Notes under the pieces: generated by a model
Told to the model about the DNA's origin: nothing
What the model saw: only the letters and a program-made list of their open reading frames with translations
Database searches by the model: none
Made by a program: the position numbers and the translations under genes
Shown: positions 34,451-37,451 of the stretch, one piece after another
Layout: each line of letters starts with the position of its first letter
Position numbering within the stretch: the stretch's first letter is position 1
Origin: Peptococcaceae bacterium BICA1-7
GTDB taxonomy: Bacteria; Bacillota; Desulfotomaculia; Desulfotomaculales; Desulfocucumaceae
Length of the DNA: 64,000 bases
NCBI GenBank assembly: GCA_000802095.1
Contig: JUEB01000017.1
Location: forward strand, 62,001-126,000
Direction of reading: 5' to 3'

Positions 34451-34786
34451 TCAGCGTCGAATCTGTTTATGTGTCTCAATATAAGAGCTCAATACAGCAC
34501 CTATAAACCCCACGCTAATATTTCCCATGCTGTTGACTATATTTAATAATTGTAATAATTCGGAAGGCAGTCCTTTGACAGATGAGTCAACCAGTAGTAC
34601 ATGAGGCTCAACATCAAGGACTGCTGCAACTTTTTCAATGAGTTCCAGAGAGGGGTTTTTCTGACCCCTCTCAAGGTATCCCCAGTAAGACTGGGTAAAA
34701 CCAGCGCGAAGGGCCGCCTCGTTTTGAGAAAAACCCTTTAATTTTCTGATTGAGCGTATGTTTCTTCCCATAATTTCATTTAACAT
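34451..34786 (-). CDS. Xre-family transcriptional regulator
   Basis: 111 residues from ATG 34786 (GGTGGAAATAT upstream). Helix-turn-helix in FSQNEAALRAGFTQSYWGYL, then EPHVLLVDSSVKGLPSELLQLL as the C-terminal part. Fifth Xre-like gene within 2.5 kb. Lies just upstream of, and divergent from, the riboswitch-controlled c-di-GMP genes. Confidence 0.87.
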   Translation of the reverse strand: MLNEIMGRNIRSIRKLKGFSQNEAALRAGFTQSYWGYLERGQKNPSLELIEKVAAVLDVEPHVLLVDSSVKGLPSELLQLLNIVNSMGNISVGFIGAVLSSYIETHKQIRR

Positions 34787-34904
34787 ATATTTCCACCCAG
34801 CGACCAAAAGTAATATTTTTAGACAATTATGTATAGCATTGGTTTTTATATGTTGTAATTTGTATACTTATAGTTTTATAATATTTGATGTACCATTTTT
34901 AATT

Positions 34905-35079
34905 TGATTAACAAAGGCAAACTACCATCGAAAGAGTAGGGCGCAAAGCCATGGGTCTAAAGCGGTTTTAATAGCACACCATTATTTGCCGCTATGATTG
35001 CCAGGTTGCGGTAAAAGCAGTGTTTTACGCCAGCACACTCCTCTACTTTCGATGATCTCGCCTAAAAAGTAGGGGTAAA
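34905..35079 (+). ncRNA. c-di-GMP-I (GEMM) riboswitch and expression platform
   Basis: Aptamer at about 34905-35015 with the hallmarks AGGCAAAC, the GAAA tetraloop, GGGCGCAAAGCC, GGTCTAA and the receptor side GCCAGGTTGCGG. In the platform, CCTCTAC (35040-35046) can pair with the ribosome binding site GTAGGGG (35069-35075), while CTACTTTCGATG can instead pair with CATCGAAAGAGTAG in the aptamer. Ligand binding would free or mask the HD-GYP start, giving feedback of c-di-GMP on its own hydrolase. Control looks translational; no terminator is seen. Confidence 0.88.
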
Positions 35080-35745
35080 ATGAAAATAAATTTTGAAGTA
35101 GCAAAAAGTATCGTGGATATTTTCCCCAGCGACTTGCTGGAGCATTCATATAATGTATGTTATTTGTCTACGAGGCTGGCCGCACATTTGGGCTACAAAA
35201 ATGAAAAATTACAAAACCTGGCTATCGGAGCTTTACTGCATGACATCGGCAAGACCAGAATAGGTCAAGAGGTATTAAACAAGCCTGGTAGATTGACAGA
35301 TGAAGAATTTGCCTTTGTAAAAAAACATACGGTCATAGGTTCTGATCTAATAAGATGTTTTAGAAACCATCAAAGCATACTGCCAGTGGTTCTCTATCAC
35401 CATGAGCGATGGGACGGGAATGGTTATGATCGTCTGAAAGAAAATGAAATACCGGAACCGGCACAGATTGTGACTATAGCTGACGCCTTTGACGCTATGA
35501 CCACTAACAGGCCATACCAAAAGACCAAATCACTTGTTGAAACTCTGCATGAATTGAATAAAAATAAAGGCCTTCAGTTCTCTCCCACGCTGGTTGAAAG
35601 ATTCGAATCATGTATCATCGAAAATACCAAAGGCATACATCCATTTACATCTGATTTCCCTTTTGTAAAAGTACTAAAAAGGCAGGTTACGCCAGTATGG
35701 AAGAAAGCAACAAAAAATATACCCGTAAAAGAAAAGCCGAAATGA
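35080..35745 (+). CDS. HD-GYP domain phosphodiesterase (c-di-GMP hydrolase)
   Basis: 221 residues, essentially a lone HD-GYP domain. The HD pair is in LLHDIGKTRIG (His54-Asp55); then HTVIGSDLIR, YHHERWDGNGYD and VTIADAFDAMTTNRPYQ, the metal- and GYP-loop motifs. The GYP motif reads GYD here, one change from the canonical GYP. Such enzymes hydrolyse c-di-GMP to GMP. The gene is preceded by a c-di-GMP-I riboswitch and followed, with overlap, by a small protein and a CBS-GGDEF protein, forming a c-di-GMP operon. ATG 35080 follows GTAGGGG. Confidence 0.93.
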   Translation: MKINFEVAKSIVDIFPSDLLEHSYNVCYLSTRLAAHLGYKNEKLQNLAIGALLHDIGKTRIGQEVLNKPGRLTDEEFAFVKKHTVIGSDLIRCFRNHQSILPVVLYHHERWDGNGYDRLKENEIPEPAQIVTIADAFDAMTTNRPYQKTKSLVETLHELNKNKGLQFSPTLVERFESCIIENTKGIHPFTSDFPFVKVLKRQVTPVWKKATKNIPVKEKPK

Positions 35746-36056
35746 ATATTCGCTTTTCCGAATTTGAACTGCCACCAATGCAAGACATTCTGGTGATTGG
35801 CAGAAGGGCTCCCATTGGTCCGGAAGCTGTAAGGAGAATGGTAGATGCCCTCGCTCCTGAGCAATATGAATTAATTGAATTTGAAGAAGGCCCGGTTGAG
35901 GCAGTAGCCGTAAAAACCTCTTTATTTAATTGGATGGCCAGAGACATACTGCTGGACGTTTTGCTGGAGGAAGCGCTCAAAATAAACATAGAAAAAACCC
36001 TGCTAAAGGTAAAACTGGACCTGACAATTTCCGTTTTCAAAGAAGTTGATATTTAA
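35742..36056 (+). CDS. Small protein between HD-GYP and GGDEF genes
   Basis: 104 residues from the ATG that overlaps the HD-GYP stop (AAATGA); an ATG at 35697 would add 15 residues. PPMQDILVIGRRAPIGPEAV looks like a small alpha/beta domain and the C-terminal part is amphipathic helix (LLDVLLEEALKINIEKTLL). Not recognised. Its place in the operon suggests a role in c-di-GMP signalling or in a partner pathway. Confidence 0.65.
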   Translation: MNIRFSEFELPPMQDILVIGRRAPIGPEAVRRMVDALAPEQYELIEFEEGPVEAVAVKTSLFNWMARDILLDVLLEEALKINIEKTLLKVKLDLTISVFKEVDI

Positions 36057-36079
36057 ATAATGGAAGATGGTTGTTTGTA

Positions 36080-36916
36080 ATGTTGGAAATCAAAGATATA
36101 ATGATAAAACCCGTATTTACCATTAGCCCTGATAAAAGTGTCCGATACGCCGCCGAATACATGCATGAAAAAAATATTGGCGGTCTGCCTGTAGTTGAAA
36201 AAAACAGGCTGTCAGGCATAATCACCTCAAGAGATATCCGGCTTAATCATCCCAATAGAATAGTTGCTGACGCCATGAGCAAGAATGTTATTTACTGCTC
36301 TCCAATAGACACAACCTGGGCTGTGGCCGAATTAATGAATTTGCACAACATAGAGCGCCTGCCCGTTGCGGAAAATGACAAACTCTTGGGAATGGTAACT
36401 AAAAAGCAGATTATTAAGTATATAAGCCAGCTATATGACCACCTTACTGGCATTTACAACTCTACATTTATTTACATGATAGCTGGTAAGCTTTTAGAGG
36501 AAGGTAACGAACTCAGTGTAATTCTGTTCGATATAAATGATTTTGGAGAACTCAATAAAAAATATGGGCATGTCAACGGGGATAACTGCCTTAAAACTAT
36601 AGCCGACATTCTCATAAAATATATTGATGACAATAATGATTATGTTTGCAGGTACGGAGGTGACGAATTTGTTTTTGTCACCTCAAAGAAAATCAGGCAG
36701 GCAGAAGAATTAGCCCAAAAAATTATCGACAACATAGCAGACTGTACGCCCGAAGCCGGATTTCCGGTCACAGTCGCTGCAGGTATAAGCGGCGGAAAGC
36801 GTAAGTACTCCAGAAATATAGTAAAGCAAAAAAATGTTGTGGAAAACCTGATTAATAAAGCCAGTCTGGCATCGACCAGGGCGAAGTCTCAGGGTCTCAA
36901 GTACCTCAGCGTCTAA
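36080..36916 (+). CDS. CBS-pair GGDEF protein (diguanylate cyclase)
   Basis: 278 residues from ATG 36080 (a TTG at 36071 is the alternative). Two CBS domains (about 1-115; IMIKPVFTISPDKSVRYAAEY and DAMSKNVIYCSPIDTTWAVAE) sense an adenine-type ligand; a GGDEF domain follows with YDHLTGIYN, FDINDFGELNKKYGH and the intact active-site motif RYGGDEF, so diguanylate cyclase activity is expected. Third gene of the HD-GYP operon; the riboswitch may thus control both synthesis and breakdown. No membrane span, so it is cytosolic. Confidence 0.92.
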   Translation: MLEIKDIMIKPVFTISPDKSVRYAAEYMHEKNIGGLPVVEKNRLSGIITSRDIRLNHPNRIVADAMSKNVIYCSPIDTTWAVAELMNLHNIERLPVAENDKLLGMVTKKQIIKYISQLYDHLTGIYNSTFIYMIAGKLLEEGNELSVILFDINDFGELNKKYGHVNGDNCLKTIADILIKYIDDNNDYVCRYGGDEFVFVTSKKIRQAEELAQKIIDNIADCTPEAGFPVTVAAGISGGKRKYSRNIVKQKNVVENLINKASLASTRAKSQGLKYLSV

Positions 36917-37451
36917 AATTCTTCAAGACTCCATTTCTGCAAAATCTTACTTCTACTTTCAAGGGTTTGACCGGTCCCCGGTACTCAAGTTTTAAATTAT
37001 TGGGGTGAACCGGTACCGGGTACTCAAGTTTTTATATCCTACAGGCCTCCCCAGATAAGAACGTTTCCGCTCATGCACCCGCCCAAGTATACTGCCTAGC
37101 GCCTTGGGTGGCTTTAGACTTCGTTGGGGGACCCATAGGGGGTCAGGCCTGCCCCCTTTTGTCCCTCAGAAAAAATAAGCGACCGCAACTGCGGTCGTTT
37201 CTTTTATAACCATTATTAAACAGTTTTATTATACCTGGGGTGATCAACAATCATAGTCTTAAATAACGGCATGGCAGGCGTTAGCGTGCCGGCTTTGCCA
37301 TGGTCAGACTAAATTTGAGGCAAATGATTGTTATTATTACTGCGATAATGATATCCTTGTAATATAAGAAGACTACCTAATGTCCCCAAAAGGATAACCA
37401 ATTTATCCACCTGACAGTAAAACCCTGCTGAAGTACTGGAGGAATACTCTC
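36917..37451. other. Intergenic region with direct repeats and a terminator-like hairpin
   Basis: No gene seen. Near 36970 and 37010 lie two copies of CCGGTAcCGGTACTCAAGTTTT-like sequence about 40 bp apart. The hairpin CGACCGC-AACT-GCGGTCG followed by TTTCTTTT at 37180-37205 can end the upstream operon. An inverted repeat CATGGCA ... TGCCATG lies at about 37270-37303. The AGGCCTG-CCCCTTTTGTCCCTC motif near 37147 also occurs at 34331, a dispersed repeat. Confidence 0.6.

Follow-up and report, generated by a model that had tools for sequence, protein, structure and literature searches.

Aptamer and operon at the locus

A c-di-GMP-I riboswitch aptamer precedes an operon that encodes an HD-GYP protein, a small conserved protein, and a predicted CBS-GGDEF diguanylate cyclase, with an XRE-family gene diverging upstream (Table 1). 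Within the whole stretch of DNA analyzed (64 kb, hereafter the window), the aptamer is the only Rfam match above the gathering score. Its score of 66.1 bits (RF01051, E 1e-10) bears out the riboswitch class proposed in a preliminary description of this DNA.

Table 1. Coordinates of the features at the riboswitch locus, in window positions
Feature	Position	Strand	Basis or remark
Divergent XRE-family (helix-turn-helix) gene	34451-34807	-	ORF; conserved neighbor
Promoter-like TTGTAA-18-TATAAT, directly 5' of the aptamer	34853-34882	+	10/12 consensus matches; pattern match only
c-di-GMP-I (GEMM-I) aptamer	34906-35013	+	RF01051, 66.1 bits vs gathering 35, E 1e-10
P2 hairpin of the aptamer	34922-34939	+	GAAA tetraloop at 34930-34933
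Invader target CATCGAAAG (P2 5' strand and tetraloop)	34926-34934	+	Sequence and folds
Anti-Shine-Dalgarno strand CCTCTACTTT	35040-35049	+	Covarying helix with SD, 23 leaders
P2 invader CTTTCGATG, overlapping the anti-SD	35046-35054	+	Perfect 9-nt complement of CATCGAAAG
GCC, can pair with aptamer GGC 34916-34918 and extend the invading helix	35060-35062	+	Duplex prediction
Shine-Dalgarno region AAAGTAGGGG	35066-35075	+	GGGG 35072-35075, four bases before ATG 35080
HD-GYP protein, 221 aa, HHERWDGNGYD	35080-35745	+	Pfam HD_5 1.2e-29
Small conserved protein, 104 aa	35742-36056	+	ATG 35742 overlaps HD-GYP stop as ATGA; alternative ATG 35697
CBS-CBS-GGDEF diguanylate cyclase (predicted)	36080-36916, or from TTG 36071	+	Pfam CBS 1.1e-29, GGDEF 5.9e-24
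Terminator-like hairpin 3' of the operon	37177-37200	both	

The P2 hairpin with its GNRA tetraloop, P3, and the conserved junction are all present, and the CM alignment is without marked mispairs. The P1 closing helix is nearly lost. In most relatives its strands are CTGTTTC/GAAACAG, and the corresponding positions in the window read TTGATTA/AAAAGCAG, which can form at most about three weak pairs, compared with 7 bp in the relative L009. The 3' flank of the aptamer forms a 6-bp hairpin (GTAAAA/TTTTAC) instead. The Rfam model does not count P1 in its paired columns, and membership in RF01051 rests on the model score. Because P1 is degenerate, the affinity of the window aptamer for c-di-GMP is in doubt; loss of this helix may weaken binding or push the switch toward the ON state. 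No transcription terminator was found in the platform between positions 35013 and 35080. The folding energy of the whole leader is not lower than that of shuffled sequences (z -0.32), so overall stability provides no evidence and specific pairings alone count.

The order HD-GYP, small gene, CBS-GGDEF is kept in relatives and in a less closely related family of the same taxonomic order. Among named relatives, Desulfocucumis palustris and Peptococcaceae bacterium BRH_c4b are the nearest, with Desulfoscipio, Desulfotruncus, and Desulfallas further out. In several families the operon recurs together with the divergent XRE gene and, usually, with a c-di-GMP-I aptamer 5' of the HD-GYP gene. The operon copies that were examined have XRE homologs (∼37–70% identity) diverging from them in the same way, and this gene possibly regulates the operon or the shared intergenic region. 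The small gene and the CBS-GGDEF gene are also found without the HD-GYP gene and without this aptamer; examples come from Paenibacillus (L078–L081) and from further families within the order. The fact that this two-gene unit occurs alone suggests that the riboswitch and HD-GYP portion was added to an older unit. The preliminary description, which had recognized the aptamer and the two enzyme genes, overlooked the near absence of P1, the small gene between the enzymes, and the divergent XRE gene.

Of 113 genomes of the order, 52 encode homologs of the small protein, and homologs also lie beside CBS-GGDEF in Paenibacillus. Profile searches of Pfam, NCBIfam, and PDB gave no match. An AlphaFold model of the protein has a mixed alpha/beta fold with a mean pLDDT of 72, and a Foldseek search with this model returned no significant match.

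The genome from which the window derives (∼4.7 Mb) carries five more c-di-GMP-I aptamers. As judged by reading, other platforms in this genome are unlike that of the window: those of L003 and L006 are terminator-like, and that of L005 is a simple SD hairpin. By eye, the small proteins encoded after the L002 and L005 aptamers resemble response-regulator receivers. A second aptamer type, at L001 (1500-1583), has the GGC variant RF03167 as its best match and may bind a different ligand; it lies 5' of a gene whose product is PilZ-like by eye. In another genome of the same family (G007), a GGC-variant aptamer (L051, 2551-2635) replaces RF01051 before the small gene.

Alternative pairings of the platform

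Two pairings had been proposed for the platform from its letters, one between CCTCTAC and GTAGGGG that masks the ribosome binding site and one that masks part of the aptamer. Both find backing among the relatives. A C-rich strand able to pair with the HD-GYP SD is present in the leaders compared, and 95.8% of the cells in the anti-SD/SD alignment form standard pairs, compared with a shuffled mean of 75.1%. The set of 23 leaders comprises 16 distinct six-pair cores, and two-sided changes are seen at six of the six core pairs tested. The register was picked by hand, which favors the structure, but the two-sided changes stand regardless; sliding the register destroys the signal, with slid registers being far worse. 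Even within the family the helix differs in sequence, being CCTCTAC/GTAGGGG in the window versus CCTACTC/GAGTAGG in L008. The anti-SD/SD helix is thus supported by covariation.

The second pairing joins CTTTCGATG in the platform to CATCGAAAG in P2, and it is mutually exclusive with the covarying SD-masking helix, an arrangement characteristic of a translational platform. None of 400 dinucleotide shuffles reached a 9-nt Watson–Crick match between the aptamer 5' half and the platform. The best duplex between these two regions was equaled by 8 of 300 shuffles in the window. In most of 16 related leaders the best duplex beats nearly all shuffles, and in four leaders none of the 300 matched it. Most close relatives have TCGATG, or a variant capable of the same pairing, next to the anti-SD. 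Many leaders also have a more 3' TGCC or TGTC that can pair with aptamer GGCA and lengthen the helix. The sequence of this exclusive helix is conserved, with few pair-preserving changes; examples are an aptamer C to U in L016 and a platform A to G in L020, both yielding U-G pairs. There are exceptions: L022 has a mismatch, and the element is absent from L015. P2 is interrupted by bulged bases in the operon-leader aptamers, as though its sequence might have to serve two partners.

The base-pair probabilities set these leaders apart from other riboswitches of their class. In 16 operon leaders a median of 13.2 nt of P2 is predicted to pair with downstream sequence, compared with 1.35 nt in 32 other riboswitches of the c-di-GMP-I class from the order (Mann–Whitney p 2e-4), although the 16 leaders share descent and the statistics therefore overstate independence. 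The comparison omitted the control loci L114 and L136, which end early and have wrong coordinates, and L118, itself one of the operon leaders. Predicted pairing of more than 10 P2 bases with downstream sequence also occurs in 3 of the 32 controls (L121, L128, and L131) and hence is not unique to the operon leaders.

Folding calculations treat the RNA at equilibrium, without ligand, magnesium, or tertiary contacts, and so serve as a guide only. In these calculations the free window leader prefers the invaded state, with an aptamer–platform pairing probability of 0.90–0.98. The SD is unpaired with a probability of 0.54 when the aptamer is available as a partner versus 0.01 when the aptamer is kept apart, and a difference this large was seen in 2 of 150 shuffles. 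Even so, the SD of the predicted apo state is merely partly free (0.27 to 0.54 unpaired). When the invader is changed in silico, the unpaired probability falls from 0.27 to 0.01 and the SD is closed; a change to the anti-SD barely alters the free state (0.30 unpaired). As the transcript lengthens, P2 is the earlier helix and gives way once position 35054 has been made, which leaves ∼40 nt past completion of the aptamer for ligand binding. By energy, the leaders of L012, L015, L016, and L022 are without the apo rearrangement.

Direction of switching

The ligand-compatible fold leaves the anti-SD strand free to pair with the SD, which argues that the leader is a c-di-GMP-I translational OFF switch that would shut the operon at high c-di-GMP concentrations. 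We assign this explanation a probability of about 0.68. With c-di-GMP bound, P2 and the GAAA tetraloop would be retained in the folded aptamer, and the anti-SD, once freed, would pair with the SD and block initiation of HD-GYP translation. Without ligand, the platform (35040-35054) would invade and dissolve P2 (34926-34940), thereby sequestering the anti-SD so that at least part of the SD becomes accessible. The small protein, through its ATGA overlap, and the CBS-GGDEF protein would probably follow via translational coupling or polarity. The predicted phosphodiesterase and the predicted cyclase, which lacks an I-site, would then both be set by the c-di-GMP level, as in the feedback on turnover that the preliminary description proposed. 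The preliminary description had given the platform its two pairings without a sign for the switch; the anatomy now points to OFF.

Alternatively, the leader could be a c-di-GMP-I translational OFF switch of the ordinary kind, whose platform only masks the SD and which switches through P1, the complementarity to P2 being incidental. In Cd1, pilM, and Vc2, it is the P1 strands that switch (PMC9262584). Several relatives have P1 together with a competing anti-P1 hairpin (GAAAC/GTTTC), and representatives of distant families (L023, L024, and L027) have an SD hairpin and no P2 invader. However, the window keeps the invader despite having lost P1, most of its close relatives keep it as well, and the other riboswitches of the order show far weaker predicted P2 invasion. 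We consider an ordinary switch of this kind improbable.

Slightly less probable is that the window copy is a decaying riboswitch that has lost P1, no longer binds physiological levels of c-di-GMP, and is stuck in the invaded, ON state. The near absence of P1 and the dominance of the invaded fold in the predicted free ensemble (pairing 0.90–0.98) are what such decay would leave behind. In contrast, the remaining aptamer features score well at 66.1 bits, both platform helices are intact, and the match to the invader is among the longest perfect ones in the group.

It is very unlikely that ligand exposes the SD and so turns expression on. The class does contain ON switches (PMC9262584), but here the fold compatible with ligand is the one that frees the anti-SD to pair with the SD. 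The G at 34916 agrees with the aptamer consensus. We take this position to be G20 of Vc2, where a change to A is linked to cGAMP binding. Although some class I aptamers sense cGAMP (PMC6456294) and the genome holds one GGC-variant aptamer (L001, best match RF03167), sensing of 3',3'-cGAMP in place of c-di-GMP is very unlikely and was rejected on the family match (RF01051, not RF03167) and on the cyclase residue, which is the c-di-GMP-type aspartate (GHVNGD) and not the Hypr serine.

Predicted enzymes and comparison with known systems

Homologs of the HD-GYP protein are up to 71% identical to it. The HD motif and the metal ligands are present (H22, H54/D55, H83, H107/H108, and D135, with the carboxylate D18 and with K58), and H22, H54, D55, K58, H83, H107, H108, and D135 are invariant among 19 homologs. 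The motif HHERWDGNGYD confirms that GYD replaces GYP, as had been pointed out, but this is normal for the subfamily and no oddity, since proline follows GY in none of the 19 aligned homologs. In PmGH (4MCW), replacement of the proline (P286A) does not substantially lower activity (PMC4159591), and GYD was rejected on this ground as proof of a dead enzyme. By analogy, the proline would not be decisive, and GYD need not abolish HD-GYP activity. All metal ligands of PmGH that could be mapped by alignment are present in the window protein, with PmGH E185 corresponding to Asp18. The differences are GYD or GYE for GYP, the absence of a GAF domain, and, by ungapped spacing from H22, Pro16 at the position of D183. 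Changing D183 of PmGH to alanine abolishes activity (PMC4159591), and because of Pro16 the predicted phosphodiesterase activity of the window protein is uncertain.

The cyclase resembles GGDEF diguanylate cyclases in its intact RYGGDEF signature and in the guanine-site Asn and Asp (GHVNGD), and differs in having a CBS pair in front and no I-site Arg. The RxxD I-site, which is optional in the family, reads DNND here, and the Arg is missing in 19 of 19 homologs. Since this Arg is missing, product inhibition at the protein is presumably absent, and it may have been replaced by control of the mRNA. These features together could represent a c-di-GMP-I platform specific to a lineage of Desulfotomaculum-like bacteria, in which P2 with its tetraloop, and not P1, is taken apart in the apo RNA. 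This platform would control an operon of opposing enzymes with an I-site-less cyclase, with turnover control moved from the product-inhibition site of the protein to the mRNA. We regard this broader proposal as tentative, with somewhat less than even odds.

If the OFF-switch reading is right, one RNA sets the amounts of both c-di-GMP-degrading and c-di-GMP-making enzymes through the level of the messenger. A rise in c-di-GMP would be opposed by repression of the cyclase (negative feedback) and reinforced by repression of the phosphodiesterase (positive feedback). Depending on the relative activities of the two enzymes, the circuit could either stabilize the c-di-GMP level or be bistable. The small uncharacterized protein would be placed in c-di-GMP signaling, and the leader would exemplify switching through P2 by a c-di-GMP-I platform. 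A limited literature search found no description of P2-based switching in this class.

The proposed P2-switching platform is unusual, and the riboswitch is otherwise of a known type. Class I aptamers located before diguanylate cyclase and phosphodiesterase genes have already been reported (review PMC3971182), and OFF switches are known in the c-di-GMP-I class (PMC9262584). The leader shares with RF01051 the aptamer sequence, the P2 tetraloop hairpin, P3, and the junction. It differs in that P1 is nearly absent and in that the platform is predicted to invade P2 from the aptamer 5' half and to mask the SD. The transcriptional OFF switch Cd1 of Clostridioides difficile is similar in that an invading fold competes with its aptamer and repressing hairpin, which coexist (PMC9262584). 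In Cd1, however, the parts involved are a terminator and the P1 strands, whereas in the window leader they would be SD masking and P2.
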